Shown here in pieces: positions 6,605 through 31,227 of a stretch of DNA of 64,000 nt. Every line of letters starts with the position of its first letter. The stretch's first letter is position 1. Source of the DNA: Thermoproteus sp. (lineage in GTDB: Archaea > Thermoproteota > Thermoprotei > Thermoproteales > Thermoproteaceae); the NCBI GenBank assembly GCA_038893495.1, contig JAWARJ010000001.1, forward strand, positions 186,001 through 250,000, written 5' to 3'. The translations under genes were made by a program, and so were the position numbers. Under the pieces are notes generated by a model. The model worked only from the letters and a program-made list of their open reading frames with translations. It ran no database searches and was not told where the DNA came from.

Positions 6605-6634
6605 GTCTAAGCACCACACGCCTCTATTTAACAA

Positions 6635-6914: not shown

Positions 6915-6961
6915 AGCCCGCGCGTGCGTTGCGGAGGGGGCAGTAGCTACGGCTCGCCTAA

Positions 6962-6972: not shown

Positions 6973-6992
6973 GGCCCCAGCGAGGCCTATAT

Positions 6993-12213: not shown

Positions 12214-12747
12214 ATGGACTGGGGGAGGGCCGGCTGGGCCCTACTGGCCTTCTCGGCCTCCTCATTTCTGGCGTTTAGAGTGCTCCACATCCTCTCGGCA
12301 CTCCTCCTCCTTACGGGACATCTCTCCATGGAGCTCCTGCTGGCGGTTGGCGGCTTGGCCTTCGTCGGCTCTTTGGCCGCGGCGGCTGGCGCCTCTTGGC
12401 TCGGCGCTAGGGGCGTCGTCTGGCCCTTCTTCGTCTGGCTGGCCATCTCGCCGTTGGGCTTCCTCATATTCGCCCTGTCGATGCGGGCCTTGGCCCTACA
12501 CGACCTAGCCGCCTGGCTTCTGGCATACGCCTCGGCCGGCATGTACAACGCCGCGATGCACGTGCCCACGGCGCTCTACTACGCGAAGGCCTATAGGGCA
12601 ACGGGCGTCGAGGAGATGCGCAAGGCGGGCCGACGCGTGGTATACGGCGCGATCGCCGCAATAGCGATGCCGCTACTCCTACCGGCCTGCGCCTTAGGGG
12701 ACGCGCTCGCGTTGCGCACAGCCGTCAAGAAGGCGTTGGGCAGGTGA
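12214..12747 (+). CDS. Four-helix membrane protein of the transfer cluster
   Basis: A 177-residue protein with four or five hydrophobic helices (roughly residues 5-25, 30-60, 68-90, 97-120, 145-165) and a short basic C-terminus. It has no recognised family. TATA-like AGTTTTAATT at 12180-12190 lies about 26 bases before the ATG, so a second promoter may start here. Its stop overlaps the start of the next ATPase gene (GTGA). Position and topology suggest a membrane component of the transfer channel, but its relationship to CedA/TedA parts is not shown. Confidence 0.65.
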   Translation: MDWGRAGWALLAFSASSFLAFRVLHILSALLLLTGHLSMELLLAVGGLAFVGSLAAAAGASWLGARGVVWPFFVWLAISPLGFLIFALSMRALALHDLAAWLLAYASAGMYNAAMHVPTALYYAKAYRATGVEEMRKAGRRVVYGAIAAIAMPLLLPACALGDALALRTAVKKALGR

Positions 12748-13634: not shown

Positions 13635-14206
13635 GGGACCCTCTCCGAAAGGCCGTCGAGCTTTTGAAAAGAGACTTCCCCGGCAAGTCGTATAGCTGGA
13701 TCCGCCGGGCTCTTTTGAGAATGCCCCACGTGAGGGAGGTTCGCGAAGGCCTCTACGTGGTGGAGGGGGTTAGGGAGCTGGGTGACTGGAAGCCTCTCTA
13801 TCAGGTGTGGTGGTCCGAGCGGGAGAGGCGTTGGTACTGCACCTGCTACTTCTCCCGATTCGGCCACGTGAGACAGAGGGGCATATGCACCCACGTCGCG
13901 TCGGTGATGCTCTACCGCCGCTATAAGCGAGTGTTAGAGGGACTGGAGGCGAGAAGGGTATACTTCGCCTCTGCCGAAGTGGAGTGCCTCAACGTGAAGG
14001 TGAGGGGCGCGGTCGAGCATAAGGTCAAGGTCGCCTCCCCCGCCAAGTCGCTTCTCGACTACGCGAGGCCGCGGCGGTATATAGTCTATATAATTGCCGA
14101 GGGGGAGGAGGCCGTCGTCGACTGCGACGGCCGCCAGATCCGCGTAAGGGGAGAGCCTCTGGACTACCGCGTGGCCAAGGCCCTCCTGGAGGAGTTAAGG
14201 ACATAG
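13631..14206 (+). CDS. SWIM zinc-finger protein
   Basis: A 191-residue protein with a SWIM-type zinc motif: C70-x-C72, then C86-x-H88 (WYCTCYFSRFG, then ICTHVASVML). SWIM domains bind DNA or proteins and occur in recombination factors such as SWS1 and in MULE transposases. The N-terminal 60 residues are basic and may form a separate fold. It overlaps the second ATPase by four bases (GTGA), so the two are probably made together and may work on the same DNA substrate. It is not known to be a standard Ced/Ted component. Confidence 0.75.
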   Translation: MRDPLRKAVELLKRDFPGKSYSWIRRALLRMPHVREVREGLYVVEGVRELGDWKPLYQVWWSERERRWYCTCYFSRFGHVRQRGICTHVASVMLYRRYKRVLEGLEARRVYFASAEVECLNVKVRGAVEHKVKVASPAKSLLDYARPRRYIVYIIAEGEEAVVDCDGRQIRVRGEPLDYRVAKALLEELRT

Positions 14207-14246: not shown

Positions 14247-14726
14247 ATGCGGATGCAAAAGTCGAAGAGGAGGAAGTTCTACAGTCTGATGTTCATAGTT
14301 GCACTGGCCTCGGCGCTGGCCTACGCCCAGACCACCACCAGTAGTACAACCACAGCCGCAAACGCCACCGGCGGCGTCACTAGCGCCGGCTGGTGGCAGA
14401 ATACCGCTAAGAATATCGTGAACTTCATGAGAGACATACTCGCGGCGGCCTTCTGGGGCTCCCTCGCGTTGTTGCTAATGTACGCAATACTCACATGGAT
14501 AGGCCCCACCAAGTTCACTAGGCTCGGCGCCATGTACGACTTCATAGACACGGTGAAGGGCTGGTTGCTGGCGGTATTCGTGATATCGGCCGGCATAGTG
14601 GGGCTAGTCGCCGGCATATCGGCAATCACTGGCGCCTTCGGTGTCCAGACCACCGTAAATCCGGCGCAGGTGCTACATGACTTATTGGTTCAACCTATAC
14701 TCCAGGCGTTCGGCATAAGCTCATGA
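14247..14726 (+). CDS. Conjugative-pilin-like protein (TedC/CedA1-like)
   Basis: A 159-residue secreted pilin candidate. A basic start (MRMQKSKRRK) and hydrophobic core ending in ALAYAQ near residue 28 form a signal peptide. A Thr/Ser-rich stretch follows, then two long helices at about 65-85 and 105-130 joined by a short positive loop (GPTKFTRLGAMYD). Signal peptide plus two-helix hairpin is the architecture of VirB2-type conjugative pilins and of the archaeal TedC/CedA1 pilins. It has its own promoter and overlaps the next gene by four bases (ATGA). It probably forms the DNA-transfer pilus. Confidence 0.75.
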   Translation: MRMQKSKRRKFYSLMFIVALASALAYAQTTTSSTTTAANATGGVTSAGWWQNTAKNIVNFMRDILAAAFWGSLALLLMYAILTWIGPTKFTRLGAMYDFIDTVKGWLLAVFVISAGIVGLVAGISAITGAFGVQTTVNPAQVLHDLLVQPILQAFGISS

Positions 14727-15637
14727 GGAAACTCCCCTTTTCCCTCCTCCTCTCACTGCTTTTGTTGGCCCCTCTGGCGTACGCCCAGTACCCAGATGTG
14801 GTGGGCACAGGCGCCACAATTCTGGGGGGCTTCGCGGCATATGCAGGCATCCTCATGCTGACTGGCATCCGCAGGCTCAAAGAGGAGGCCTACGACGTGC
14901 TCTATAGGGGAGCCATCTCGGCGGCGCTCTTCGCCTTGGCGCTGGCCATCGGCCTCCTGGCGGCCCAAACCGCCACATACTTCGCCTCTAAACTAAACGC
15001 GACGGGCGGCTGCTTCAAGGCGCCGTCCTTCACGCCCGACAACTTAGCCCTCTACAGATACGCCGAGTGGGCATCCGCCGGGCTGAACTGCGCCGCGGGG
15101 AACTACAGCAAGTGGGTAGGAGACCTCGCCGGCTCTATCTCAACACTGCTGGCAATTGTGGGGGTCGGCGGGTCGGCCCCCATCCTACAGAACATGCTGA
15201 TAAACTTCGGCCAGATCCTCATGGCATATGTCAGCGCCGCCCTCACCCTGGGGCCTCTGGCAGTATCGGCATATGTGGCCTCCCTATTCGCCTCGGGCAT
15301 ATTGGGGACATCTCTGTTGCTGTACCTAGCGGCGCTTGGAGTCCTACACGAGAGGACTAGAGGCCTCGCCTCCGGCGTCCTCGGCGTATACGGAGCGTCG
15401 CCGACGCTCATATTGGGGGCAGACTTCCTAAAGGCGAAGATAGACGCGATGGGCGGCCTGTCTCTGCCCGCGTGGGACCCCTTCGTGCCTGTCTTCTGGG
15501 CCGATGCGGCGTCGAAGGCCTTCGACGTGATTGAGGTGGCCGCATACGCGGCGCTGGTCCTTGCGGTATACGGGGCGTTGGCATACGGCATATCGCGGAT
15601 ATTCGACCACGCAGGGGTCTCCCTTGCGGGAGAATGA
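14723..15637 (+). CDS. Multi-span membrane protein of the transfer machine
   Basis: A 304-residue protein with an apparent signal peptide (RKLPFSLLLSLLLLAPLAYA, cut near AYAQ) and about seven further hydrophobic helices. A Cys-containing external loop (about residues 90-130, with GGCFKAP and LNCAAGNYS) could hold a disulfide. It follows the pilin directly (ATGA) and precedes the giant gene directly (ATGA). The topology fits a VirB6/CedA-type channel subunit, and the giant downstream has a similar head, so this may be a partner of TedA. Confidence 0.65.
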   Translation: MRKLPFSLLLSLLLLAPLAYAQYPDVVGTGATILGGFAAYAGILMLTGIRRLKEEAYDVLYRGAISAALFALALAIGLLAAQTATYFASKLNATGGCFKAPSFTPDNLALYRYAEWASAGLNCAAGNYSKWVGDLAGSISTLLAIVGVGGSAPILQNMLINFGQILMAYVSAALTLGPLAVSAYVASLFASGILGTSLLLYLAALGVLHERTRGLASGVLGVYGASPTLILGADFLKAKIDAMGGLSLPAWDPFVPVFWADAASKAFDVIEVAAYAALVLAVYGALAYGISRIFDHAGVSLAGE

Positions 15638-18600
15638 GCTGTCAGGTCCCCAGCCCCTTCGGCGGGGATTTGCTACAGCTGGCCGTATACGCCTCGATAG
15701 CCCTAGGCCTCTTGAAGCTCTTCGTCTTTAGGGATTGGGAGGGCTGGTGGAGGCCCATAGTCGCCGCCCTACTGCCGACGGTGTTAATACCGGCGGCGCT
15801 TACGGCGGTGCTTAACGCCTTCGGCATGCCTACGCCACTCTACGGAGTAGACGGGCTCCACATGTACACGGTTGTCTCTAGCAACGACCTATGCCGCAAT
15901 CTGGCCGTGGCCGAATACGTCTACAACAAGCTGGAGTCCTCAACGCTCAGTCTGGTCAACACGTACGCCGCGGCGACCACGACGCTCACGGTGATAGACG
16001 GCATACTGACTGTAGTCACGGGAGGGGCGTGGCAGGCTTTGGACTACGCCGAGTCCGCCTTGAGGCTTATGGGCTTTCAGAACTGGGTCAACGCGCTGAC
16101 CCAGCCCATCCTGGCTATGGTCTACATCTACATGTCCCTCACCGTAATCTGGCACATCGTGGTGGTCATGGCGAGAGTCGCCCTATGGGCGCCCCTCCTC
16201 ATATCGGTGGGGGTGCCTCTAGTGGCCGTAAGGCGGACTAAAGACTTGGGCGGAGTCGCCATCGCCCTAGCCGCAATAGCGGTCGCCGTCTCCCACTTCG
16301 CCTTTTTGACGGCGCTTGACGTATATGGGATGGCGCTGTGGGGCGGCGCCTTCGCCCAAAACCTAAAGGACGCCGCAGGCGGCTTGCAGATAAACTCCAC
16401 GGCGGTGCCATACGGAGCGCCCCAGCTCGCCATATTCGGCGGCGACGGCGTTTACTACATCGTCTACAACAACACATACCACGCCTCGGCGGTGCAAAAG
16501 GCCATGGAGGAGAACCCATTCTTGACGACACTGGTAGACCAATACGCCAACAACACCTATTTGAAACAACTGGCAGAGGAGAGGAGGCAGGAGTACCTAA
16601 ACGTGCTGAAGAGCTGGCTGAATAAGACCTCCCTCTACGCCAAAAACGTAACGAACGGAGTCCTGGCGGCCGCCGGTCCCTCTGTGGGGGCCTTGGAGTG
16701 GGGCAATAAGGCGATGAACGCCTCCGCTTGGTACGACTGGCTGGAAATGGACGTGACGTTGAGCGTGGCCAAATGCAACTCCCTCATACCGCAGGAGTTG
16801 GAGGGCCTTTTCCAGATGGGGCGGGAGCTAAACAGCAACATCACAGCCATAGTGGAGCGAGCCGCAAACGAGACGTGCGCGTGGCTCCAAAAGGCGAATC
16901 TGACAGATCTAGTCTTCAACTACGCCGGTAGGTACAGAACGCTTGTTGCCGGCTATACCTACAGCCTATCAGCCATGTGGGGTAACTCTACCGCTTTGCT
17001 GAGTAGGTCCAACGCGAGCGGCGCAGTGGGGCTGTGGGATTGGGCTGTCGGCTACGGGCCAGATGGAGAGAAGTGCGTGGTGGCTGGCCACGTCGTTAAT
17101 TGCGACTTTATGAACGTCACGGCGTCGCTGGGGCGGCTCACGTACGAGATGCCGAACGGCACGTTGACGTGGATAGAGCCCGCGACCTACCCAGTCCAGG
17201 TCCAGTTCAACGCGTCTCTACAGCTGTCGTCGGGGAGGCCATACCCCACCGACAAGATACCTCTCTACAAGACCACTGAGATATGTACGTGGTGCGCCAA
17301 GTGGGTCAACGGCACTTGCGCCCAGTGGGCCTCGGCCTATAGGGACTGGTGGGAGGAGTATACCGCCAAAAAGGTGTTGTCTCGCGCCAACTACACTCTG
17401 CCGAGGCCCTACTCGCCAGAGCCTTGGCGCTACCCGCCGGGGACTGCCGGAGCCCTCAACGTGACGTATGTGGAGAGGACTTGGTCGATTAGCAAGTATT
17501 GGGTGTACGGCAGTTGGTATCCTCAAGCTCCGCCTCCAAACGCCACGTGCTACTTCACGAGCCCCTCCGTCTACAAGTACGTGGTGTTGCTACACGTGCC
17601 CCAGCCCTACGTACGTGTGGTGTACTACTGGGCTTGGCTCAGCGGCGCAAACATAAACGTGAGTCCCAGCGCACAGCCGACCCTCCCGGACACCCTCCCC
17701 GCGTCGGAAGTCCCGCCGGATGCGAGGCCTAAAGACGGGCTGCCGGCAGACTACTACCTCTGGGGCGCCGAGAATGCAGTATACTGCTCTTCCGCCGTCG
17801 TTGTCGGCGAGTACGAAGGGTGGAAAGGCATGCTTAAGGCTCTGCCGCTTGTCGACGAGATAAATAGGGAGGGCCTCTTCGCCTCTCTTGCGCTCCGCAA
17901 CGCCACGGCCTCCTACTACCAGGTGAGGCAGATTCCGAGCGGCATCCAGTGGCTGATCGGACTGGTGCAAGGCACTCCCGGCCAGTGGGCCGTCCCCGCG
18001 CTTGAGGAGGGGCTGGGGTACGCCAAGGGCAATTGGCACGGCTATTTGTGGCACCCCATGCCGGAGCCTGTGCCCTCCTCGTATAGGCTGTACCACCTAT
18101 ACGCCGCCTGTATAGTCTTCGAGTGGAACTCTACGAGGTGGCCTCCCGGCGGCGTGAAAATGCTGGGCGCGTTGAGGCTTACGCCAGGCAGAGAGGTCTG
18201 GGCAGTCGACGCGCCTTTTGCGTATTCCAACGCCACCTTGACGCTCCTAGACGTGACTAACACAATGTTACATCACTTTCTGACTAAGGGCTTCCTCCCG
18301 CCCGCGCCGGCCGAGGTCTGCATTCCGGTGGGCAACGGTAGCATATGTGGGGCGCCGTATCTGGCCGGGATGCTCACTGGAGTCTACTGGGGAGGGCCCT
18401 GCCCCTACGGGACGAACAACTGCGGCGGCTACGTCAGGCTGGACATGTTCCCGACGGGGCCTTGGGGAGTTCCCTTGGTTGGCAATTTCTTCTCGCAAGA
18501 GATGTACAACACCTTCGAGGTGGCTATGGCCTATGGGGAGGCTTGGAAGAGGCTTATCTTCGCCGGCATCCTAGTGCTGGGCGTCTTCGAGGTTATGGGC

Positions 18601-21600
18601 TTCCTATTCGGCTTCCCCACACCTGCACGCCTCCTGTACTCGGTGGCTTCCGACATCTTGTCGCAGTTGGGGTACTGGATGGGGTTCCGCATTGGCCTAA
18701 AGGCCAAGTTGGGCAGGAGGCTCATACAGCCCATAAGGGCCAGGCTGGTTAGGGCCTCCCGCCTCATAGCCGCAAAGTTGCCGAGGATAAAGCCGTTGGG
18801 ACTGCCCTCTAGGGAGTGGCTGAGAGACCCGCGGCGTTGGCTTTGGGAACGTGTGACCCGCCGGTGGGAGGAGGAGAGGCGGAGGCAGATAGAGGAGAGG
18901 CTGTCCAGCCCGGGCGGGAAGGAGGAGTGGGAGATACGCATGGAGCAAAAGCGCCGCTGGAGGGAAGAGGCAAGGGAGGCGCTCAAGAGGATATACCACG
19001 CCGCCCAGGCACACGACGTGGTGGAATTCGCCAGAAGGCTCTCTCCCCGCATAGACGCCTTCATCTCGAGAGTCGAGGAGAGGCTTGCCGAGAGGCATCC
19101 GACTCTCTACAAGCTTTACGTCTTGACGTATCGGGGGCAATACGGCTATCTCTACCTCCTCGCGGAGCCCGTGATACGCAGATGGGAGGCCGAGGGCAAG
19201 ATCACTAGGGCCGAGGCCGACCAGTTGCGAAAGCTGAGGGCGGCGTTGTGGGCCGCCGCGGCTGAGGCAAAAGCGAAGGCGGCTGAGGCCGAGAAGGGCG
19301 TAGACCCCAAGCACCTCAAACACGTCTTGGAGTATAGGGAGAGGTACGTCCAGTACGCCTTGAAGGAGCTGGAGCTTATGCGTTTCGCCAGGACTAAGGA
19401 GGAGCTGGAGGGGCGCCTTAGATATGCCGCCTCGCACCTACAGCGTATAGACCCCAAGGGCGCCTCCAGGCTTTGGGAGGCGCTAGAGGTGGCGGCTGAG
19501 GGCAAGAGGGTCGGCCTGAAGACCACTGGCGAAGTTGCGGAGTTCCTGTGGGAGCGCCGCGAGGGGCTTGACGTAATCGCCCAGAGGGCCAAGGAGCTGA
19601 TCGCGCAACACTACGCACACGCGCCTCTGTCGGTCAAGGACGTGGCGAGAGAGGAGGTATACAGACAGGTAATTAGGACGACGCCTCTACTTGAGGCACT
19701 GGCCAAAGCCCGTAGATACGCCGCAACTGGCGAGGGCATAGAGGACGTGGTACAAGCCCTTGAGGCGAGGGAGGTGAGAAGGGCCGCAAGGGCGGCCGAA
19801 GTGGAGCTGGGCGCGGTGAGGAGGGCCGCGGAGAGGGCGGCGAGGCTCGAAGAGGAGAGGGCCGGCCTACTATCCAAAATCGAGGAGTTGAGGGGGAGGG
19901 CTGAAACGCTGAGGGCGGAGCTTGAGGCGATGCGCCAGTCGGGAGTGTCCTTCAAGGAGCTTGAGGGGAGGCAGAGGCAGTTAGAGGAGGTGTACAAAGA
20001 AGTAGAGAGATTACAACAACGTCTCTCTCGCGTTGAGGAGAGGCTTGTCGAGGCGAGGCGTAGGCTGGCCGTAGAGGCGAGAGAGGCGCTGGAGAGGGCC
20101 GTCAGGTCCTACAGAGGGGTCTTGGAGGGAGTGAAGTACGAGACGGACCCCGCATATATCGAGCTGAGGAGGGCTTTGCTTGAAGGCCGCCTCGACGTCG
20201 CCTATAGGGAGCTTAGAGGGCGCTACGAGAGGGAGGGCAGAGACGTCAGGCAGGTGGACAGGCTGTATCAACAACTGAAGCCCTACGAGGCCCAGTTGCA
20301 AAGGGCGAGGGAGGAGCTTAGGGCCGCCGTCAAGGAGCGCGAAGAGGCCATTAGGGCCGAGGCGGCCAAACGTATGGAGGCCGTGACGTATCTAGAGTCT
20401 CTGTTCAAGGCCCTACCGACAGCCACAGAGGAGGACGTACGCAGAGGCGTCGAGATGGCGAGACAACTCGGCCTCGAGAGGACTGCCGCCTTTCTGGAGG
20501 AGTATCTGAGACACGGACAGGTTAGGGAGAGGTACGCCTCAGCCGCATCTACTGCGGCTGTGGCCTTGGGGAGGCTGGCCGGAATGCGCGAACAAGCGGC
20601 GAGAGAGCATCAAGCCGCCGAGGAGAGGCTAAAGCGCGTCTCGCTTGCTGAAGACGCCTTGAGGCGTATAGGCCATGCTACGGAGTTCGGACAGGCGGCG
20701 AAGGCCGCGAGGGAGGCCGGCCTGGAGAGGACGGCTTTATTCCTGGAGCGCTGGGCGGCGTTAAGAAGACAAGCAGAGGAGAGAGGCGGCCTTGAGGTAG
20801 TGAACAGATTGGGCAGAGCTCTGGCTGAAGGCAGGCTTGCCGAGGAGGCCTCCGCAATGGCGGCTGAGGGCAAGGCCCTCGGCAATTGGTACGGCAGAGT
20901 CGTGGAGCTCAGACCCCTCTACGAGGAGGCGGTCAAAGAGGCGGCCAAGGCCAAAGCCGAGGCCGAAGCCACCACGAAAGTTGCGGCCGAGCTGAAGGCT
21001 CTGATGGAGAAGGCTAGCGCCGAGTCGCCTGCCGACCTAATCGCAAGGGCGTCTAAGCTCGACGTAGGGGAGCTGAAGAGGGCCGCAGAGGCGGCCAGGC
21101 GGGCCGGTCTTGAACATACGGCCAGATACTTCGAGGAGCTTGCTGAGTTCGCGACGTCGGCAAAGGAGGGCGCCAAGGCGCTGGCTGAATACTCGAAGGC
21201 CGAGAGGAGGCTTAGGGCGTTGGAGGCCAAGGCTAGGGCCGAGCTCCAAAAGGCTGAGAAGGTCGCGGAGGGCCTCACAGCTCTGCTTGAGGGCAGAGAG
21301 TACGAGAGGCTGGCCCACGTGAGGTCTGCGCTTAAGGCCCTAGACGAAAAGACGAGTAAGGCGCTGGAAGGGCCTTTGGGGAGGCTGGCCGAGGTGAGGA
21401 GGGAGGTTGAGCTCCTTAGGGGCCACTACACCTACGAGGTTGGAGGGCCGGTCTGGCGTGAGTTGAGACAACGCGGTATAGACACCTTGTTGTTGAGGGC
21501 GCCGTTGAGCGCGTATGTGGCGGCCACGCTTGAGGGCTCCCTTCTGAGAGAGGCCGCCGAGGCCTTTAGGCCCTCCTTCTCGAAATATGAGCGCGAAGCC

Positions 21601-24600
21601 GCCACGACAATCGTATATCTGCCAGTGTCTGAGGGCGAGAAGCTGGGCCCCGTCATAAGCTGGGAAAGGGCCGTCAAGGGCGATGCCAGGCCCTACGTCG
21701 AGGAGATAGCCGAGACGAAGGCCCCCACCTTGAAACAAGCGGTCAAAGAGTATTACGCCGGCAGGGGCAGGCAGTACAGAGAGCTGGCCTACCTAGAGGC
21801 CAGGGCCGCAGAAGCGGTACTGGACGTACACGCCGCCCGGTACTTCCTTGAGAGGTACGCGAAGGAGGGCAGACAGGAGGATTTGGCGCTGGCGATTGCA
21901 CTCGCCTACCGCGCCGCCAAGGCCTACCAGAAGTATCAACACTCCGACCTCGGCCAGCTGGCGGAGCTGGTGGCAGAGATAAGGCAGAGGCTGGGCCTGG
22001 CCGGCAGAGACGTCACGACGGAGGCTCTGGCCGCGTCAATTCAACAACTAGGAGGAGATAAGGCCCTCAAAGAGGCCCTAAAACCGAAGAGCGTCGAGGA
22101 GGCCGTCAAGTGGCTTAAGGCGGCCTGGGCCGCAGTGGACTACAGAACGTTGGAGTCGAGGTTAGGCCTCACTCGCACCTACACAATACCGGAGCCCGAG
22201 ATGGCCCTTGAGTATACGGCCAAGGCCCTTACTCCTTCTAGAGCGGCCGCCCTGGCTGAAGGCAAGGTGGCTGAGGAGGCCTTCTCGGTCATGAGGGCCT
22301 ACTCCCTACTGAGGGAGTTCGAGAGGTTCGTGAGGGGGAGGCAGAAGGAGGTGGCGGCAAAAGCCGATCTGCGTGTGGCTAGGGCTTTGGAGAGGCCTCT
22401 GCCTTTGTTGCAGACCAGCGCTGTGGATAAAGCCGCCAAGGAGGCCGCAGCAAGGCTCGTGAGGGAGGCCGAGGCTCTGGCCCAGAGGTACGGCCTTCGC
22501 CACGTCGAGACGAAAGCCGTGTTGGAACAAATCAAAGAGCTTGTCAGAGTCTCGCCTGGGGCCTTCGGCGAGCTGGTAAGCGCCGCCTCTACGGCGAGAG
22601 GGCCCTTCAAGGAGTGGGCTAGGCAGTTGGTGGCTGAGGTGAGGCGCAACTGGGACTCCTATAGGGAGGGCTGGGAGGCGCCCGTACTGCAGAGGCTGGA
22701 GCTGTTGAGGAGAGTGCCGGCCGCCTCCGGGGCCGAGTCGCCTATTCCGAGAGAGCTTATCGCGCTGGCCCTCTGGGCCGAGCTGAACCCGAAGCTGGCT
22801 GAGTTGAAGCGGGCGGTCGGGGAGGTTTCTCCGGCCGCAGTAGAGGAGGCCTCGCTCATGGCGGAGGCCATTAGGGCGATTCAGAGGGATTTGGAGAGGC
22901 TGAAGGCCGTAGACTTGGAGAGGCCGATACGCCTCTCGTTCGAGGCGCTGGAGCGGAAGACGGCTGGAGGCGTCGAGAGGCTTGTCGTCGACGAGGCGGC
23001 CGAGTTGAGCAAGGCCTCTCGCTACCTACAACACTCAGACTTGCGCGTTAGGGAGGAGGCTGAGCTCCTGCTTAAATTCGCCCGTGGCGAAATTACGCGC
23101 ACTCAACTAAGGGAGGAGCTGGCGGGGCGTGGAGGCCCCGTGACTGAGGAGGGCCGTGAGGCCGTCTCCGTGGAGAGGAGGCTGAGGGACATACGTGCGG
23201 AGCTCGTGTCGCGTCTGGCCGTCAAGATGGCGGTCTTGAAGGACGTCGAGAGTCTGAGGAGGGACGCGCTTGGCGTGGCCTATTGGGCCGCAGTCAAGAC
23301 GGGCCTAGGCGACGAGAAGGCCGAGAGGGAGCTCCGCACGTTGGCGGCCATAAGCCCCAAGGCCGTAGAATACGCCGAGTCGCTAAAGCTGTTGCGAGTG
23401 CTGACCGAAGGCCTCGACCGCGTAGTGTACGAGCCCGAGCTGGCCAAAAGGCATCCAGAGCTCCGCGATGTACTGCTTGAACGCGACCGCGCGCTCAAGA
23501 AGGCCGAGGAGCTTGAGAGGTCGGGAGATGTGGAGAGGGCAGTCTTGGCCGGCCTGTTGAGGGAGTTCGCTGAGGGGCACGTCTCGCGCGGCCAGTTGCT
23601 CAAGGCGGCGGAGGAGAAGGGCGTCGACCTCTCCGAGTTCTCTAGAGAGAACATAGAGAGGATGCGCGGCATGGTGATGGAGCGCGTAAGGGAGATGGCT
23701 GTGGAGCTTTCTGCATATAGAGGAGAGTACAGGTCGCTTAGGGAGGCCCTTGAGGCGCGTCTGCCCATGGGCCTATATGCGGAGCTGGCGGGCGAGTTGA
23801 GGGTGAAGTTAGAAGAAGCCGCGGCTAGGGCCGGCGTGCCTCTCGAATATGCCAGTCACGGCGTCGTTGAGGGCGCCGCCAGATATGCAGTGGAGCTGGG
23901 CCGCCTCGCCTCGCGCCTCCCCGTGGAGGTTGAGGGGGTCCAAGCCGCTCTCGACTCGTTGCGGAGGGAGCTTTCCTCCATAGACGAGCCGAAGCTGATA
24001 GCGGAGCTGGCCAACGGCAACTACTCAACCGTGGAGAGGATAAGGAGGCGAGTCGAGGAGGTAGAGGCTGAAGTGGCCAGGGCGGCCCTCGAGGCGGTTC
24101 GTAGGTTTGGCGTGAGGGGGGTGCCGCCTGAGCTGTTGGAGCTGGCGGCCAGGGCCGAGTTCACGCCGGAGGAGCTTTCCTCCATTAGGGCAGAGCTCAA
24201 GGCCGCCTTGGAGGCCGCCGCGAGGGGAGGGGCATTCACATGGCCTCAGGCCGAGTATAGATCGTCCATATTCGCAACCACCGACGAGAAGGCGGCTAGA
24301 GCCTGGAGGCGCGGAGGAGGCCTCGTGCTTGAGGAGTATATACTCACGCAGTTCGGGCCCAAGAGGGTCTACATATTGGCGCCGAGGAACGCGCCCATTG
24401 AGGAAATCCGCGAGGCTCTCTACGCGCTTAGGGGCGTCGAGGTGATAGGTATGCCGAAGTGGCTCGCCGACTGGTCTGTGGCGGAGGCTTTGGGCTTTGA
24501 GGTGGAGCGCACCGATAGGGGAATCGCCTTGAGGTCGAGAGTAGAGGCCCTTATAGACTTGGAGAGGCCTCTGCCCTACCGTAGAGAGGTCTGGGAGGCA

Positions 24601-27600
24601 TTGAAGAGGGCTAGGCCCGACTTGGCGAGAGAGGCCGTAGGAGTCGGGTGGTCTGTAGTCCACTGGGAGGACGGCCTCGCGGCCGTCAACGCGTACCTCT
24701 TCTTGAGGAGGATGGCCAGGTGGGACTCATTCGGGCCTGCCGACGTGGAGAGGGCTCTTGAGGAGTATCGGAGGCGCTTCACGCCGGCCTTCGAGCGGCA
24801 TCTCCGCGCCATGTCCCTCGATAGGCTGGGCTTCGACGTGGTGGACTTCTTGAAGGGGGCATATGCCGTCGTTAGGAGGCTTAGGGGCGAGCTGGCAGTA
24901 TACAAGCCGCAAGACCCCGAGGCCTACGCCCGCCTCATCTGGTGGGCAAAGAGGAACGCGAGGGGTTCTCTCTATGAGCTCTTGGAGCCGGACTTTAGGA
25001 TTGAGGCCACGTTGAAGGCCCTCAACATAGCCGTCAAGGGCGGCTGGCTTTCGCTCTCGGAGGCCCTTTCGCTTTTCGATTCGTGGCGCCGCAACAACGA
25101 CGTGGCCAAATGGGACGAAGAGGCGCTGAGGATTGCCCTACGCGGGAACCTCCGCATGAAAGAGACAGAGGAGGCCATTAAGCGGTTCGTCGAGTCGATT
25201 AGGACGTCCAAACAGCTGGAGGCCGAGGAGGTAGCTAAGGAGAGGCTGAGGCTCATGGAGGAGCAGAAGAGGAGGGAGGAGGAAATGAAGAAAATTAGAG
25301 GTATAAGGGAGGCGAGGCCTAGGGCGAAGCCGGCAGAAGAGGCCGAGGCGTCTCAAAAGGAGGAGGCCGAGCAGGTCAAGAAGGAGGAGGCGGAGAGGGC
25401 CAGGCCTGAAGCTGGGGAAGCAATCAAGGCGGAAAGGCCTGAGGGGGCTAAGGCCGCGGTGCCGGAGGCCGAAGGGCCGGCTGAGGAGGTTAAGCCGGCT
25501 GAGGCCGAGAGGGCTGGGGAGGAGGTTTCCTACATAAAGCTGGGCCACGTCTACGTCAAGTCGACATACATGGAGAACGCCGTGGTTAGGGCGTTCGCGG
25601 TGGAGAATCCCGTCGAGTGGCACCACAAGCTGACGCCGGAGGCCTATCTGGAGCTTAGGGCCGGCCTTGCGCCGTTCGAGTTGGAGAGGCTCGAGGCCGC
25701 TAGGGAGAGGGCCGCCGAGAGGAGGAGGGCCCTTTCGCTTCTGGCCGAGCGCTACGGCTCGATCGCAGTGCCCGAGAGGGTTAGGAGGGAGGCCGAGAGG
25801 AGGGCCTACGCCGAATTTATGAGGCATTTCGCCCGCCTCGCGTCGTTGTACGACCCCGAGGCCGTGGAGGCCGTGAGGAACCGCCTAATGGCGCTTGTGG
25901 CGGAGTGGGTCGAGATGGAGGACGTGCCGAACGCCTACGAGTTCATCTACAACGTGATGTGGACTTGGGAGGGCGACCCCAAGACTAGAAATGTGAGGGA
26001 GGAGTGGGGCTACTGGCTATTCCGCGAAGACTTCAAGGCGGTGAAGGAGCTGGCTGAGCGCTACGGCGTAGACGCTATGAGGCTGTGGAACGCATACCGC
26101 TCCGCAGTAGACAGGTATCTGGACACAGTTACGTCCTACGGCGACGCGGTGAGGAGGGCCGTCACGACGGTAGACAGAGCCCTATATGTGGCGCTCACCG
26201 CGGCTGGCGGCGTCGCGCTGGCCGAGGCGTTGCACGGCGCCGTAAGGCCGGAGCTTGTCTACGCCGCCACCGCCGCGGCCTCGCTGGCTCTCGCCGGGAA
26301 GTACAGAGACGCCGTACGTGTAGTCAAGACGGCAGTGGAGAACGTCAAGGCTGTCGTCGAGAAGGCGGCTGAGGGCGTGAAGCTGGCCGTCGAGAGGCTG
26401 TACGAGGCGGTTGTCGAGACGGCGGCCCGTATAGTCCAATGGCTGGGCGGGCACTGGAGGGCCGTTGCCCTTATCGCCGCAGCCGCGGCGGCCGGGCTGA
26501 TCGCCTGGACGGCGGCCCACCAGATGCAACACGCGCTGTTTATCGACCACGCCGCAATTCTCGCCAAGGCCGGCTTCTTGGGCGTAGGCGGGGTCGCAGA
26601 GGACAGAGACGCGTTGCGCCGGCTGTGGAGCAAGGCGCTGGAGGACTGGAGCCTCGCGGCCGCAGGCGAGAAGGTCGAGGCGGTTAGGGCGTTGATGAGA
26701 GACAAACCCGTCTTAGCGGATAGGTTCGAACAAGCCGAGAGGTCCGCCGCAGAGGAGGCGAAGCTGAGAGCCGCCGTCCTCAAGAAGGCGCTTGAACTGC
26801 GCTGGGAGCCCACCGCCGAGAGGGCTGTGGGGACGTTGGTGGAGGAGACGGTGGGCCCGTCCTTGAAGGAAGAGGAGCTGGGGGCCTTCGGCGTGTGGAA
26901 GGGCGTTAAAGGCTTCCTCTATAAGCTACACGGCGAGGGAGGGGGCGTTCTGAACGTCGGCGGCATCGAGGCGAGGGGGCTATACGCGATAATCGCAAAG
27001 ACCGGCGGGAAGACAATACGCGTTGAGGTGTACGCGAGGGAGGTAAACGACAAGAGGTTTGAAGAGGTGGAGACCCCCATCGGGAGGCTCTACAGGCTGG
27101 CCTCGTTAAGCGTGTCCGTGACGAAGGGCGGCGAGCCGAGCACGTCCACCCTCAACTTCACTGCCCCGATTGAGCGGGAATACCGCGTTGGGGTGGAGCT
27201 TGGCGAGGAGCAGATAGGTAGCGAGAGACGGATAGGTAGCGAGGAGCAGAAGAGGAGCGGGCTCTACGGGTTCGTGTTGACAGACATCGGCGAGAATATG
27301 CTGAACAGCCCCGACCTGTCGCTACACATGTCGCTCGGCCTATTCGCCAACATCAAGAAGATGTACATCGACGACGCCCCCCTCACAGACGCAGGCCTAT
27401 CGCTACATATCGTCTCTAAGATCGAGGAGAAGTTCCCGCCTAAAGTCTTCTTCTGGGAGGCCATGATGGGCGCGATTAGGGAGGCCTTGGGCCAAGAGAA
27501 GCTCGAAGACCCCAACAGGGTCCTTGAGGCTCTGTGTGGAGGTCCCTGTGTGGACGAGAGAGGCCGCCCGAGTGTCGAGCCTCTCTTGAGGGCCCTTAGG

Positions 27601-30207
27601 GAGCACTTCGCTGGGTTGAAGGAGCTTAAGGCCGTGGCCCGCAAGAAGGAGTGGCGCCTCTACGTGAGGGACGACATAGACAAGGCGATAGTCAACGAGA
27701 AAAAGAGCGTGGCGTATGTGCCGCGCCGCATGTTGTTCGAGCTTGCGGAGGCCATGAGGAGGCCCGAGTTCTGGCTGACGTTGCTTGAGGGAGACGGCAT
27801 GCCGGCCATACACAAGGAGATGCTCGGCCTGGCCGTCAAGGAGGGCTACGAGGACGTAGCGGCACTGCTAATGGGGGCCTTGGCGCTGAGGTACGGCATA
27901 GAGCCAAGGCTGATAAAAGGCGAGCGCGCCGCCTACCTGGACGCCGAGACCTCCCGCGTCGTTTCGCTGTTGTTGATACACGAGCTAAAGAGAGTAGGCG
28001 TGAGGGCGTTGGAGGAAGACGAATTAACCAAAAGGTCTGCCCGATGGGGGCTTGCCGGCGCGACGGCGCTGATAGCTAGGCGCTGGCTCGACTGGGGAAT
28101 GCCCGGCGGTAGGGACCCGCCCAAGCTGATATCGATATTGGCCTTTTACGAGAGGTCGCTGGCCAGGCTGTACGGCCAGTACCAGAGGTACCTGAAGGGC
28201 GAGGCCGAGAGGCCGCCCTACCTCCACCTAGTGGAGGAGGTGCTGAAGGAGGAGGGGGAGGCGCCTTTCTACGTGAGGGAAAGGATTTTGCCCACTACCG
28301 CATTCGACCTTAGGATGAAGTACCTCGACAGAGAGTTTAAGCTGGATGTAGAAAGGGCGTGGAGGGAGCACGGCACGGCGATGGCTTTAGCCTATAGGTC
28401 GTACGTCCTGTCGGCCGAGCTAGACGAGAAGGAGGCCTCAGCCGAACTCATGGTCCCTGTGGAGGTTGCGGGCGGCGTTAGGTGGCAGAGGGTTGAGGTG
28501 AGGACGGACTGGAATCACTACTGGGTGTCCTGCTCCGGCGCCCACTGCGACGTGGCGAAGAGGGCTTTGGGCGTTAAGGAGCGCGGATTGGACTCGACGC
28601 TGAGCCGGGCCGTCATATATACCTCCCTCAAGCGCCTCGAAGGCTCTTTGGAGGTTGGCCAGTGGCCCGAGGGCGTCAAGAGATGGATGAGGGCGCCGCT
28701 CCGTATAGAGCTGTTGGAGGTCAGGGACAACGGCGACGTAAGGTTTAGGATTTGGTACTACAGATGGCTCGACACGAGGCCGCACCAGCCCTATGTCGAC
28801 GTCGAGATGAAGTACGTCAAGCGGGGCGAGGGAGGAGGGCAGTTTGTCGGCTGGCTTAACAGAAACGAGGCCGAGGGCATATACGCCGAGCATTTGGAGG
28901 AGATCCACAAGATGCTTGAGGCTGAGGGGCTACATACGACCCTCGCGAAAAGGGAGGAACACGCCGTGAGGATAGACTTCACCGGCGGTTTCCGCAAGGA
29001 GCTGTTGAGGCGCGTCGGCTATGTGCCGGAGCGCGCGGCGGCTGAGCCTGCCGCTATTAAGTACCTCGGCGATCTGCACTTTGAGGTTGAGGGACGCGTG
29101 GTGGAGTTCGGCGTACAGCAACGCGGCGTCTGGCAACAGCCCTACGCCGTATTGCAGTTCGACACAGCGGAGGCAACCGCCAACTTCTACAAACGCTTAA
29201 AAGCCGCTGGAGTGTACGCAGAGGTGAGGGGTAGCGAGGTGAGGCTCGACGAAGAGTCATACTGGGGCTTGGTGACTACAAGCGGAGTAACGCCTGAGGG
29301 CTGGCAACGCCTATACCCGCTTGAGAAAGACCAGTACAGGGACCTCTACGTCTTTAAGCGGGTAGATGCAGGCGGCGTCTACTACCAGTTCGTGGTTAAG
29401 GTAGGGGATGTGTGGCGGGCCACCGGCGGCTGGTACGACGAGAAGAGGCTCATAATTGCGCTGACCCACTCAGAGCGCGCAGTCCTTGAGGCGTTGAGAG
29501 AAGCCGTCAAAAAAGCGGTGGACGCCGAGCTAGGCGAGGTAGGCGTTTTGAAAAGCGGTGTATACTACCTATACGCTTACCGCCCAGTCCTCGCCGCCTT
29601 TGAGGAAAGGGCCTTGGAGGCAAGGCCGTCCGAGAGGCCAGCTGTATATGTAGAGGACGACGCCGTGGTGGTCAAGCACGGCGGCGTGGAACATAGAGTC
29701 GAGTTCTCGCTTGTGAAGCAAAACCGGAGCATCTTCATACCCGACCCGGCGCTCCAACCGGCGTTAAGGGCATTGGGCGTGCCGTTTTTGTGGACTCCTG
29801 AGGGGGCGAAGGTGTATAGAGACGGCTTGTGGGGCCTGCTTGCTACCGCTGTAGAGGACTCCTTAAGGAGGGGTGTGCAACCGACGCTACCAAGCGGCGT
29901 CTCTTTAATTACAGCTAGACCCGATAGGGACCACTACGTATTTCGCGTCGACGCCGAAGACGGACCGCATATATACTCAGTACTGAAGGTAGACGGCGTG
30001 TGGACCGCCATGGGAGGAAAGGTTAGGAAAGACGGAGTGGTTGTTATGCAACACTCCGACGAAAAAGTCGCGAGGGCACACGCCGAAGCCCACAACGAAC
30101 TGCTGGCACGTTGCATAGCCGAGGGGCGTTGCGCGAAGAAGGAGGCTAAAAGGAGGCCTGACGGCAAGGGCTGGTACTTCTATCTGCATATAGAAAGCTT
30201 GAAATAG
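15634..30207 (+). CDS. Giant TedA/VirB6-like protein fused to a coiled coil and PaREP2b-like tail
   Basis: An uninterrupted 4857-codon gene. Residues 1-240 hold several membrane helices (LLQLAVYASIALGLLKLFVF near 12; others near 40, 150-200 and 205-235), like CedA/TedA/VirB6. Residues ~240-965 form a Trp-rich external domain with many NxS/T sequons and several cysteines. Another helix at ~973-995 returns the chain to the cytoplasm, where an Ala/Arg/Glu-rich helical region runs to ~3230, followed by a low-complexity Lys/Glu/Ala/Pro linker (~3233-3296). Two more hydrophobic segments occur at ~3516-3556 and ~3608-3631. The tail resembles PaREP2b proteins of Pyrobaculum (for example RIWYYRWLDTRPHQPYVDVE near 4371) and ends in a ~190-residue tandem duplication. 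It starts in an ATGA overlap. It is probably the core transfer channel with a huge cytoplasmic arm. Confidence 0.85.
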   Translation: MSCQVPSPFGGDLLQLAVYASIALGLLKLFVFRDWEGWWRPIVAALLPTVLIPAALTAVLNAFGMPTPLYGVDGLHMYTVVSSNDLCRNLAVAEYVYNKLESSTLSLVNTYAAATTTLTVIDGILTVVTGGAWQALDYAESALRLMGFQNWVNALTQPILAMVYIYMSLTVIWHIVVVMARVALWAPLLISVGVPLVAVRRTKDLGGVAIALAAIAVAVSHFAFLTALDVYGMALWGGAFAQNLKDAAGGLQINSTAVPYGAPQLAIFGGDGVYYIVYNNTYHASAVQKAMEENPFLTTLVDQYANNTYLKQLAEERRQEYLNVLKSWLNKTSLYAKNVTNGVLAAAGPSVGALEWGNKAMNASAWYDWLEMDVTLSVAKCNSLIPQELEGLFQMGRELNSNITAIVERAANETCAWLQKANLTDLVFNYAGRYRTLVAGYTYSLSAMWGNSTALLSRSNASGAVGLWDWAVGYGPDGEKCVVAGHVVNCDFMNVTASLGRLTYEMPNGTLTWIEPATYPVQVQFNASLQLSSGRPYPTDKIPLYKTTEICTWCAKWVNGTCAQWASAYRDWWEEYTAKKVLSRANYTLPRPYSPEPWRYPPGTAGALNVTYVERTWSISKYWVYGSWYPQAPPPNATCYFTSPSVYKYVVLLHVPQPYVRVVYYWAWLSGANINVSPSAQPTLPDTLPASEVPPDARPKDGLPADYYLWGAENAVYCSSAVVVGEYEGWKGMLKALPLVDEINREGLFASLALRNATASYYQVRQIPSGIQWLIGLVQGTPGQWAVPALEEGLGYAKGNWHGYLWHPMPEPVPSSYRLYHLYAACIVFEWNSTRWPPGGVKMLGALRLTPGREVWAVDAPFAYSNATLTLLDVTNTMLHHFLTKGFLPPAPAEVCIPVGNGSICGAPYLAGMLTGVYWGGPCPYGTNNCGGYVRLDMFPTGPWGVPLVGNFFSQEMYNTFEVAMAYGEAWKRLIFAGILVLGVFEVMGFLFGFPTPARLLYSVASDILSQLGYWMGFRIGLKAKLGRRLIQPIRARLVRASRLIAAKLPRIKPLGLPSREWLRDPRRWLWERVTRRWEEERRRQIEERLSSPGGKEEWEIRMEQKRRWREEAREALKRIYHAAQAHDVVEFARRLSPRIDAFISRVEERLAERHPTLYKLYVLTYRGQYGYLYLLAEPVIRRWEAEGKITRAEADQLRKLRAALWAAAAEAKAKAAEAEKGVDPKHLKHVLEYRERYVQYALKELELMRFARTKEELEGRLRYAASHLQRIDPKGASRLWEALEVAAEGKRVGLKTTGEVAEFLWERREGLDVIAQRAKELIAQHYAHAPLSVKDVAREEVYRQVIRTTPLLEALAKARRYAATGEGIEDVVQALEAREVRRAARAAEVELGAVRRAAERAARLEEERAGLLSKIEELRGRAETLRAELEAMRQSGVSFKELEGRQRQLEEVYKEVERLQQRLSRVEERLVEARRRLAVEAREALERAVRSYRGVLEGVKYETDPAYIELRRALLEGRLDVAYRELRGRYEREGRDVRQVDRLYQQLKPYEAQLQRAREELRAAVKEREEAIRAEAAKRMEAVTYLESLFKALPTATEEDVRRGVEMARQLGLERTAAFLEEYLRHGQVRERYASAASTAAVALGRLAGMREQAAREHQAAEERLKRVSLAEDALRRIGHATEFGQAAKAAREAGLERTALFLERWAALRRQAEERGGLEVVNRLGRALAEGRLAEEASAMAAEGKALGNWYGRVVELRPLYEEAVKEAAKAKAEAEATTKVAAELKALMEKASAESPADLIARASKLDVGELKRAAEAARRAGLEHTARYFEELAEFATSAKEGAKALAEYSKAERRLRALEAKARAELQKAEKVAEGLTALLEGREYERLAHVRSALKALDEKTSKALEGPLGRLAEVRREVELLRGHYTYEVGGPVWRELRQRGIDTLLLRAPLSAYVAATLEGSLLREAAEAFRPSFSKYEREAATTIVYLPVSEGEKLGPVISWERAVKGDARPYVEEIAETKAPTLKQAVKEYYAGRGRQYRELAYLEARAAEAVLDVHAARYFLERYAKEGRQEDLALAIALAYRAAKAYQKYQHSDLGQLAELVAEIRQRLGLAGRDVTTEALAASIQQLGGDKALKEALKPKSVEEAVKWLKAAWAAVDYRTLESRLGLTRTYTIPEPEMALEYTAKALTPSRAAALAEGKVAEEAFSVMRAYSLLREFERFVRGRQKEVAAKADLRVARALERPLPLLQTSAVDKAAKEAAARLVREAEALAQRYGLRHVETKAVLEQIKELVRVSPGAFGELVSAASTARGPFKEWARQLVAEVRRNWDSYREGWEAPVLQRLELLRRVPAASGAESPIPRELIALALWAELNPKLAELKRAVGEVSPAAVEEASLMAEAIRAIQRDLERLKAVDLERPIRLSFEALERKTAGGVERLVVDEAAELSKASRYLQHSDLRVREEAELLLKFARGEITRTQLREELAGRGGPVTEEGREAVSVERRLRDIRAELVSRLAVKMAVLKDVESLRRDALGVAYWAAVKTGLGDEKAERELRTLAAISPKAVEYAESLKLLRVLTEGLDRVVYEPELAKRHPELRDVLLERDRALKKAEELERSGDVERAVLAGLLREFAEGHVSRGQLLKAAEEKGVDLSEFSRENIERMRGMVMERVREMAVELSAYRGEYRSLREALEARLPMGLYAELAGELRVKLEEAAARAGVPLEYASHGVVEGAARYAVELGRLASRLPVEVEGVQAALDSLRRELSSIDEPKLIAELANGNYSTVERIRRRVEEVEAEVARAALEAVRRFGVRGVPPELLELAARAEFTPEELSSIRAELKAALEAAARGGAFTWPQAEYRSSIFATTDEKAARAWRRGGGLVLEEYILTQFGPKRVYILAPRNAPIEEIREALYALRGVEVIGMPKWLADWSVAEALGFEVERTDRGIALRSRVEALIDLERPLPYRREVWEALKRARPDLAREAVGVGWSVVHWEDGLAAVNAYLFLRRMARWDSFGPADVERALEEYRRRFTPAFERHLRAMSLDRLGFDVVDFLKGAYAVVRRLRGELAVYKPQDPEAYARLIWWAKRNARGSLYELLEPDFRIEATLKALNIAVKGGWLSLSEALSLFDSWRRNNDVAKWDEEALRIALRGNLRMKETEEAIKRFVESIRTSKQLEAEEVAKERLRLMEEQKRREEEMKKIRGIREARPRAKPAEEAEASQKEEAEQVKKEEAERARPEAGEAIKAERPEGAKAAVPEAEGPAEEVKPAEAERAGEEVSYIKLGHVYVKSTYMENAVVRAFAVENPVEWHHKLTPEAYLELRAGLAPFELERLEAARERAAERRRALSLLAERYGSIAVPERVRREAERRAYAEFMRHFARLASLYDPEAVEAVRNRLMALVAEWVEMEDVPNAYEFIYNVMWTWEGDPKTRNVREEWGYWLFREDFKAVKELAERYGVDAMRLWNAYRSAVDRYLDTVTSYGDAVRRAVTTVDRALYVALTAAGGVALAEALHGAVRPELVYAATAAASLALAGKYRDAVRVVKTAVENVKAVVEKAAEGVKLAVERLYEAVVETAARIVQWLGGHWRAVALIAAAAAAGLIAWTAAHQMQHALFIDHAAILAKAGFLGVGGVAEDRDALRRLWSKALEDWSLAAAGEKVEAVRALMRDKPVLADRFEQAERSAAEEAKLRAAVLKKALELRWEPTAERAVGTLVEETVGPSLKEEELGAFGVWKGVKGFLYKLHGEGGGVLNVGGIEARGLYAIIAKTGGKTIRVEVYAREVNDKRFEEVETPIGRLYRLASLSVSVTKGGEPSTSTLNFTAPIEREYRVGVELGEEQIGSERRIGSEEQKRSGLYGFVLTDIGENMLNSPDLSLHMSLGLFANIKKMYIDDAPLTDAGLSLHIVSKIEEKFPPKVFFWEAMMGAIREALGQEKLEDPNRVLEALCGGPCVDERGRPSVEPLLRALREHFAGLKELKAVARKKEWRLYVRDDIDKAIVNEKKSVAYVPRRMLFELAEAMRRPEFWLTLLEGDGMPAIHKEMLGLAVKEGYEDVAALLMGALALRYGIEPRLIKGERAAYLDAETSRVVSLLLIHELKRVGVRALEEDELTKRSARWGLAGATALIARRWLDWGMPGGRDPPKLISILAFYERSLARLYGQYQRYLKGEAERPPYLHLVEEVLKEEGEAPFYVRERILPTTAFDLRMKYLDREFKLDVERAWREHGTAMALAYRSYVLSAELDEKEASAELMVPVEVAGGVRWQRVEVRTDWNHYWVSCSGAHCDVAKRALGVKERGLDSTLSRAVIYTSLKRLEGSLEVGQWPEGVKRWMRAPLRIELLEVRDNGDVRFRIWYYRWLDTRPHQPYVDVEMKYVKRGEGGGQFVGWLNRNEAEGIYAEHLEEIHKMLEAEGLHTTLAKREEHAVRIDFTGGFRKELLRRVGYVPERAAAEPAAIKYLGDLHFEVEGRVVEFGVQQRGVWQQPYAVLQFDTAEATANFYKRLKAAGVYAEVRGSEVRLDEESYWGLVTTSGVTPEGWQRLYPLEKDQYRDLYVFKRVDAGGVYYQFVVKVGDVWRATGGWYDEKRLIIALTHSERAVLEALREAVKKAVDAELGEVGVLKSGVYYLYAYRPVLAAFEERALEARPSERPAVYVEDDAVVVKHGGVEHRVEFSLVKQNRSIFIPDPALQPALRALGVPFLWTPEGAKVYRDGLWGLLATAVEDSLRRGVQPTLPSGVSLITARPDRDHYVFRVDAEDGPHIYSVLKVDGVWTAMGGKVRKDGVVVMQHSDEKVARAHAEAHNELLARCIAEGRCAKKEAKRRPDGKGWYFYLHIESLK

Positions 30208-30225
30208 GGGGATTACGAACTCACC

Positions 30226-31227
30226 ATGGACATCTTGACGAGACTCCACGAGAAATACGGCGCGGAGATCGAGAACGCCCTCGTGAAATACCTCTCCATC
30301 GACTTGGCCCCCGACTTTAGGGAAGAGGTCCTTTATCAAATAACTACAGGCGGGAAGAGGCTTAGGCCCATCTTGACCTTGACTGTGGCCGAGGCGCTGG
30401 GCGACTTCAAGAAGGCGGTGCCCGCGGCGGCCATCGTGGAGCTCATACACAACTACTCGCTTATATACGACGACATAATAGACCGCGGAGAGGTGAGGAG
30501 AAACAAGCCGACCACTAGGGCGGCCTTCGGGGACTACGCCGCAATACTGATAGGGATATGGTATAGAGAGGCCATAGAGGAGGCCGTGTTAGAGACGCCC
30601 AAGCCCCTCGAATTTGCGCGAGATGTGGCTAACGTAATAAAGGCCATAGACGAAGGCGAGAGGCTTGACATACTCTTCGAGCTCGCCGGGAGGGACGACC
30701 CCTATTTCGTCAAGGCCAGATGGCCCGAGGTGAGGCTTGAGGACTACATCAAAATGGTCTCCTTAAAGACCGGCGCCCTAATAGCGGCGGCGGCCAAATG
30801 GGGCGCCATGAGCGTCGTCGACGACAAGGCACTAATAGAGTCGGCGTGGGACTTCGGGATGAACGCCGGCATCGCCTTCCAGATTATAGACGACGTATTG
30901 GACATATTCGGAGACCCCAAGAAGTTCGGGAAGGAGATAGGCAAAGACGTCAAGGAACACAAAAGGGGCAACATCGTGATCCTACTCGGCCTTGCGGAGC
31001 TCGATGGGGACGCCAAGACGGAGCTCCTTTCGATATTGTCCCGACCTGTCGTCAGCGACGAAGACGCCAAGAGGGCAGTTGCCCTATTGGAGCGCACTGA
31101 CGCCAAGGAGAGGGCGTTGAGGCTCGCCGACGAGTATAGAGAAAAGGCCTTAAGGAGCTTGGAGAGGTTGCCCCACTCTAGGGACTTGGAGGAGCTGGCG
31201 GCCTTTATAGTCCAGAGGCAGTTCTAA
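30226..31227 (+). CDS. Geranylgeranyl-type polyprenyl diphosphate synthase
   Basis: Condenses isopentenyl diphosphate onto allylic diphosphates to make the C20 (or longer) chains of archaeal lipids. The 333-residue protein has the first aspartate-rich motif DDIID at 82-86, GGKRLRP at 42-48 and the second motif DDVLD at 222-226, typical of E-prenyltransferases. Exact chain length is not readable. It begins only 18 bases after the giant gene; no convincing TATA box fits a leaderless start, so read-through from upstream or a promoter inside the giant gene end is likely. It is convergent with isopentenyl phosphate kinase, overlapping by four bases. Confidence 0.9.

Follow-up and report, generated by a model that had tools for sequence, protein, structure and literature searches.

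Does an open reading frame of 4857 codons at the end of an archaeal Ted locus encode one real protein, and does that protein connect DNA exchange with the PaREP2b elements, the 'junk' gene repeats of heat-loving archaea that have been known for over 20 years? The frame lies in a 64,000-nucleotide stretch of a Thermoproteus sp. genome (contig JAWARJ010000001.1), referred to here as the window. An initial annotation had read it as a single gene joining a membrane channel, a long helical arm and a PaREP2b-like tail. The features identified in the window are listed in Table 1.

Table 1. Features of the Ted island and of the giant protein in the window (res, residues of the giant).
Feature	Coordinates	Strand	Basis or remark
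DUF92 gene, left flank of the island	4460-5236	-	
Ted island, ~25 kb	5241-30207	.	Inserted between divergent DUF92 and GGPP synthase genes
177-aa ORF, dispersed repeat, left end of the island	6101-6634	-	No Pfam match; copies elsewhere in own genome
ParA/MinD-like ATPase	6924-7568	+	PF01656 E=5.4e-6; 68% identical to a P. calidifontis Ted-locus gene
TedB, VirB4/HerA-type ATPase	7968-9872	+	PF01935 E=1.2e-13; 51% identity to P. calidifontis
HerA-like AAA ATPase	12744-13634	+	55-74% identity to genes of other Ted loci
Weak SWIM zinc-finger protein	13631-14206	+	PF04434 E=0.0046, under its cut-off; 53-70% identity, conserved across Ted loci
TedC pilin	14247-14726	+	phmmer vs PDB 8dft E=1.7e-26
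TedA, 304 aa, about 7 TM, VirB6/CedA-like channel gene	14723-15637	+	Follows tedC immediately, like its P. calidifontis counterpart; TM pattern
Giant protein, 4857 aa	15634-30207	+	Single uninterrupted ATG ORF, homologues, selection
Head TM core, TedA/VirB6-like (putative), res 1-235	15634-16338	+	hhalign vs TedA family
Ectodomain, res ~240-968, rich in sequons, Trp, Pro and Cys	16351-18537	+	
Last head TM, res ~970-992	18541-18609	+	Followed by a stretch with net charge +21
Helical/coiled-coil arm, res ~1000-3450, Ala/Glu/Arg-rich	18631-25983	+	No Pfam family
Conserved ~165-aa module with hydrophobic helices, res ~3492-3656	26107-26601	+	hhalign 98.7-98.9
Exchangeable C-terminal tail, res 3660-4857	26611-30204	+	dN jump between own giants; orphan copies
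LAGLIDADG-like motif FWLTLLEGDG, res 4046-4055	27769-27798	+	PF14528 match of own2 tail at this place
GGPP synthase gene, right flank of the island	30226-31227	+	

A conserved giant gene within the Ted locus

The start of the giant overlapped the end of the preceding gene by 4 nt (ATGA), and co-linear giants with open frames of 4.2-5.1 kaa were found in six Thermoproteus and Pyrobaculum genomes (G000, from which the window derives, G005, G007, G009, G014 and G016). Intact copies measured 5058 aa in P. calidifontis (G009, whose TedC matches PDB 8dft), 4372 aa in P. oguniense (G014) and 4594-4642 aa in G016, which had three, while those of G007 and G005 measured at least 4436 aa and at least 4239 aa, respectively. 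The genome of the window carried, besides the giant of the window (own1), a second one (own2) of 4417 aa counted from its ATG. Broken copies were present in G003 and G017, and G016 additionally had one split copy. Purifying selection was detected in every segment of the giant (dN/dS 0.12-0.37, own1 versus own2). Together, the open co-linear homologues and these dN/dS values point to a single coding frame under selection and away from an artefact of chance or fusion, a result that concerns the frame and not the number of mature chains. The giant ORF is thus confirmed as a real, conserved gene, as the initial annotation had argued from the ATGA junction and the codon bias.

In contig 143 of G003, a relative of the giant (L137) was spread over three adjacent frames corresponding to the end of the head (331 aa), the arm (2337 aa) and the tail (1122 aa), which may reflect a real split, decay or an assembly error. 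Direct Pfam and PHROG scans of the window giant gave no useful match, and the head had no relatives in the viral and plasmid collections. Against the genome-contig collection, the head gave 0 matches as a single-sequence query and one MAG as an alignment query; the head relative L261 belonged to a MAG labelled Candidatus Calditenuaceae and could be mis-binned Thermoproteaceae DNA.

The pair tedC-tedA was located directly 5' of the giant in every locus whose upstream sequence was covered. As the gene following tedC is the one called TedA in the description of the Ted system (PMC9905601), TedA corresponds to the gene preceding the giant and not to the head of the giant. Full-length TedB and giant heads were found in the identical 8 of 19 Thermoproteaceae genomes (Fisher p=1.3e-5): TedB was present in 8/8 genomes with a head and in 0/11 without one. 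The giant is therefore encoded together with TedC, TedA and TedB and linked to the Ted system.

A Rad50 has been mentioned for Pyrobaculum Ted loci (PMC9905601). Its identification with the giant was not supported, since the giant had no SMC/Rad50 Pfam match and the Ted island of P. calidifontis possessed a separate Rad51-family gene (L022:10227-11165, + strand; PF08423 E=8e-38). Likewise, the ABC ATPase heads that flank the coil in Rad50/SMC proteins had no Pfam match in the giant.

Membrane head, ectodomain and helical arm

Six TM segments were located in the head (residues 13-31, 42-60, 154-172, 175-193, 207-225 and 974-992), around an ectodomain of ~730 residues. This ectodomain, described in the initial annotation as Trp-rich and glycosylatable, indeed contained 22 of the 25 N-glycosylation sequons of the protein (within residues ~250-970).

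Compared with the TedA family by hhalign, the TM core of the head obtained a probability of 96.2 (E 2.5e-9), the match covering mainly a ~50-residue TM hairpin with the RxRxLG signature. Controls stayed at 0.3-0.4 for reversed profiles and at or below 0.5 for nine unrelated polytopic membrane proteins. Remote homology, as detected by this profile comparison, supports the head as a putative distant TedA/VirB6-like paralogue; the head as TedA itself was rejected, that role belonging to the short ~7-TM gene upstream (Table 1).

Other Thermoprotei families also possessed Ted/Ced-like loci in which a second protein resembled TedA. With 839-1431 aa, it was built from a TM core, a sequon-rich ectodomain, a further TM and a cytoplasmic part that is positive and rich in charges. 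At several of these loci (L129, L130, L133, L135), a short TedA-like gene was located immediately 5' of it. Given these shorter proteins of the same plan, the giant looks like the Thermoproteaceae version of a more widespread second channel protein, with the arm and the tail as extensions.

The arm matched the long Ala/Arg/Glu-rich helical region initially annotated, with heptad-like periodicity peaking at residues 1250-1750 and 2250-2500. No internal arm repeat was matched in a BLAST self-comparison; one 10-residue motif occurred three times in the arm, in own1 only. Patches of raised divergence between own1 and own2 were observed at residues 2040-2340, 600-660 and 1500-1560 amid similar regions, suggesting gene-conversion mosaics, and an arm segment of ~340 residues (own1 residues ~2365-2704) was missing from own2.

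The tail and its probable relationship to PaRep2b and LAGLIDADG proteins

The ~165-aa module that precedes the tail was common to all tail types and to the Pyrobaculum stand-alone tails. The Pfam PaRep2b model (PF07775) had no match in the window giant or anywhere in its own genome at E<=10, but was matched above cut-off and in frame at the giant C-termini of G005, G007, G014 and G016 (E=2.1e-107 for the P. oguniense giant tail and 1.3e-17 for the G016a tail). Full-length profiles of own-type and PaRep2b tails shared a ~160-aa module (98.7-98.9) with no match beyond, and submodules of the two tail types matched at 89.9 and 76.6, which makes remote homology between them likely, short of proof. 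The initial annotation had expected both a TedA-like head and a PaRep2b match in the tail: the first was supported by the profile match, and the second failed for the window giant as far as Pfam is concerned. 'PaRep2b-like' holds by descent, through the in-frame PaRep2b domains of the orthologues, and probably by remote similarity, through the submodules (77-90%).

The LAGLIDADG-like motif of the window giant (Table 1) was the one GDG motif seen in its tail. At the same place, the own2 tail matched LAGLIDADG_3 (PF14528) below threshold (E=0.0011/3.4e-4), and own1 had no match to this HMM. Motifs of the FWLTLLEGDG type were also found in PaRep2b-type tails, 8 of 23 of which matched LAGLIDADG_3 (best E=1.4e-6), and the acidic motif residue D178 was nearly invariant in 23 tails. 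Modelled with AlphaFold, a PaRep2b-type tail (pLDDT 77) displayed alpha-beta-beta-alpha-beta-beta units, and five of its six best Foldseek matches in the PDB were LAGLIDADG endonucleases, with weak E-values (0.01-0.1); the best natural ones were, at such E-values, I-OnuI, I-DmoI, PI-SceI and I-SceI. The own1 tail model (pLDDT 71) gave similar but weaker LAGLIDADG matches, and its N-terminal ~240 residues, motif included, were of low confidence and unreliable. Over both models, the top matches had E-values of 0.01-0.2 and low TM. As PaRep2b matches LAGLIDADG_3, the tail probably represents a degenerate DNA module of the homing-endonuclease type. A hydrophobic helix at residues 3610-3628 leaves the topology of the tail ambiguous.

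These tail data bear on a different reading of the giant, as a structural or adhesive scaffold whose tail would bind TedB, ParA or RNA instead of DNA. The large conserved ectodomain rich in Trp, Cys and sequons, the long arm and the presence of a ParA-like ATPase in the island would all suit such a scaffold, and the evidence for DNA binding is remote; however, the LAGLIDADG_3 matches among relatives of the tail and the near-invariance of D178 argue against it, and this reading is considered unlikely.

Tail exchange between giants

Along most of residues 1-3660, own1 and own2 differed by a dS of ~0.2-0.7 and a dN of ~0.05-0.15. From residue 3660, dN was mostly 0.4-0.9 and dS high or saturated, the change at that residue being abrupt, with dN rising from ~0.1 to 0.6-0.9. 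Compared with the own2 tail, the orphan cassette L077 was nearer to the own1 tail (dN 0.17, dS 0.75). The two paralogues thus differ by a tail switch at residue 3660; no comparable switch was found in the giants of G016 and G007.

A sharp switch of this kind, together with orphan tails, is also what would be expected if the tails were exchangeable cassettes, similar to polymorphic effectors, that a T4SS-like machine delivers to partner cells. This appears highly improbable, as the tail is encoded in cis with a multi-TM channel head and the G016 and G007 giants lack the switch.

The own2 giant ended about 80 bp from the apparent 3' end of a tRNA in opposite orientation (L020:1558-1591), this tRNA being a sub-threshold tRNA-like Rfam match.

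Insertion of the island and dispersed PaREP2b copies

In four other Thermoproteus genomes (G004, presumably T. uzoniensis, G001, G005 and G003), the DUF92 and GGPP synthase genes were divergent neighbours 25-240 bp apart, whereas 25 kb of Ted genes filled this gap in the window. Another genome, G002, is presumably T. tenax. The Ted locus is thus an island, with its empty site visible in these four genomes. Its junctions (5224-5241 and 30205-30226) fell inside the short divergent DUF92/GGPP synthase promoter, the left one retaining promoter sequence (GGTATATATCCATTTAAA), and the stop codon of the giant lay 18 bp 5' of the GGPP synthase start, which makes the 3' end of the giant the right end of the island. 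There was no clear target-site duplication at the junctions, and Pfam detected no integrase among the island ORFs scanned. Several Ted islands were present in some genomes. The P. oguniense Ted locus fell within the region at 485-530 kb that, according to PMC3558965, P. arsenaticum lacks. Two of the further own-genome copies of the 177-aa left-end ORF were located beside orphan tails (L080, L081).

Dispersed PaREP2b tails retained their 3' end and differed at their 5' end. In G016, all 17 non-intact copies (17/17) had the 3' end, one of them being the 3' part of the split giant, and all but one were truncated within 2.1 kb. These dispersed copies are thus truncated at the 5' side. A TATA-like sequence (AAAAACTTAAAAAC) was often found 3' of them; a shared 3' UTR as the copied unit was rejected, the homology among dispersed copies ending with the coding region.

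A same-strand tRNA gene started ~30-60 bp 3' of the tail copy in 4 of 17 cases in G016 (L193, L196, L204, L206) and in 6 of 18 in G007 (L212, L213, L214, L217, L221, L225), far above the chance level of ~0.0006 per site; G016 and G007 being closely related, their tRNA-adjacent copies are not independent. Rfam was used besides ARAGORN, which misses intron-bearing tRNAs; for some of the adjacent tRNAs, introns meant that the call relied on A/B boxes or on Rfam scores below threshold. The P. oguniense copy L088 was located 45 bp before a tRNA-Leu, and 0 of 20 P. aerophilum copies were tRNA-adjacent. A decayed P. calidifontis tail copy (L093) lay ~0.5 kb upstream of the 16S rRNA gene and in opposite orientation to it.

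The genome of P. aerophilum (presumably G012) contained 59 PaRep2b stretches and lacked giant heads as well as full-length TedB, as expected if these stretches are relics of lost islands. It also contained a 2785-aa open frame (L085:2324-10681) with arm and PaRep2b tail and without head, a large 5'-truncated relic.

PaREP2b elements are best explained, on the strength of these sequence comparisons, as mostly 5'-truncated copies of the right end of Ted islands. The initial annotation had proposed that PaREP2b proteins may belong to DNA-transfer machines or be their relics; this proposal is strongly supported by the tails of the orthologues, the copies keeping the 3' end, the co-occurrence of TedB and heads, and the empty site. 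The polarity of the relics fits interrupted transfer, end-primed copying and homing alike.

The insertion data could also mean that the tail is a selfish homing or mobility module, spreading Ted islands and itself by cutting near promoters and tRNA genes rather than serving DNA exchange, and that the giant is a fusion of transfer and mobility functions. This would account for an island without integrase among its scanned ORFs at an otherwise empty site, for several islands per genome, for copies that retain the right end and lie next to the 5' ends of tRNA genes, and for the LAGLIDADG-like modules of the tails. No target-site duplication could be defined, however, and in two genera purifying selection has maintained head, arm and tail as a single frame, so that a function of the whole protein is favoured; the selfish module is regarded as a doubtful alternative. 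A bolder version, in which Ted islands are actively mobile with the 3' end of the giant always arriving first, the tail acts as the equivalent of a relaxase that the arm tethers to the channel, and the PaREP2b copies beside tRNAs are fossils of interrupted transfer or LINE-like copying, is decidedly unlikely.

Proposed role of the giant

The reading preferred here, which we hold to have about an even chance of being correct, sees in the giant a second channel subunit, VirB6/TedA-like, very large and DNA-gripping, within a Ted system that is mobile. The head would join the membrane channel beside TedA, and the glycosylatable ectodomain would project below the S-layer toward the pilus or the partner cell. 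The arm of ~2450 residues would reach into the cytoplasm, where the C-terminal degenerate LAGLIDADG-type units would bind, and possibly nick, chromosomal DNA and deliver it to the channel. PaREP2b copies that are still open may constitute a pool of tails exchangeable into a giant. The architecture and context of the protein are direct observations, whereas the VirB6-like head and the LAGLIDADG-like tail are supported by remote homology. From this homology we infer the gripping or nicking of DNA; the role as a tether and the direction of transfer are likewise inferences.

This second-subunit reading draws on the order tedC-tedA-giant, the co-occurrence of TedB and heads, the shorter proteins of the same plan and the profile match between head and TedA. 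It further draws on the PaRep2b tails of orthologues, their LAGLIDADG_3 matches and LAGLIDADG-rich Foldseek list, purifying selection, the tail switch and the empty site. Counting against it, the LAGLIDADG support of the window's own tail consists of a motif, in a part modelled with low confidence, and a sub-threshold match in the paralogue; the weak Foldseek E-values, the helix at 3610-3628 and the split copies also weigh against it.

Comparison with known systems

The window contains the same type of locus as the published Ted system (Thermoproteales exchange of DNA; PMC9905601), with ParA, the VirB4-like TedB, a HerA-like ATPase, the TedC pilin (8dft) and TedA. The main text of that paper describes no giant after TedA and no second TedA-like subunit, and the giant appears to be a previously undescribed addition to the archaeal DNA-exchange machinery. 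Ted was called domesticated there; here it is an island present in several copies in some genomes and lacking from its site in four close relatives.

In Saccharolobus, CedE is a second CedA-type paralogue, with 5 TM only (PMC11868833). With the CedA, CedE and VirB6 channel proteins, the head probably has in common the TM core and the hairpin signature ([P]RxRxLG), as seen in the profile comparison with the TedA family. Unlike CedE, the giant adds an ectodomain, an arm of ~2450 aa and a tail. The nearest analogy to this plan would be the extended VirB6-like proteins of Rickettsiales and of Gram-positive plasmids. The tail is a candidate for the DNA-processing step of Ted, for which we know of no relaxase.

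The literature has treated PaREP2b exclusively as repeats or as putative transposable elements (PMC3558965). Here, PaREP2b (PF07775) was found both as the C-terminal part of orthologous giants and as dispersed stand-alone copies, the own1 tail being too diverged for the Pfam model, and the repeats would thereby derive from Ted islands, as remnants of their right end that carry a LAGLIDADG-like domain. With LAGLIDADG endonucleases (PF14528; I-OnuI, I-DmoI), the tails appear to share the GDG motif and alpha-beta-beta-alpha-beta-beta units, with weak HMM and fold matches; unlike these enzymes, the tail comprises several degenerate units within a giant membrane protein, and its endonuclease activity is putative.
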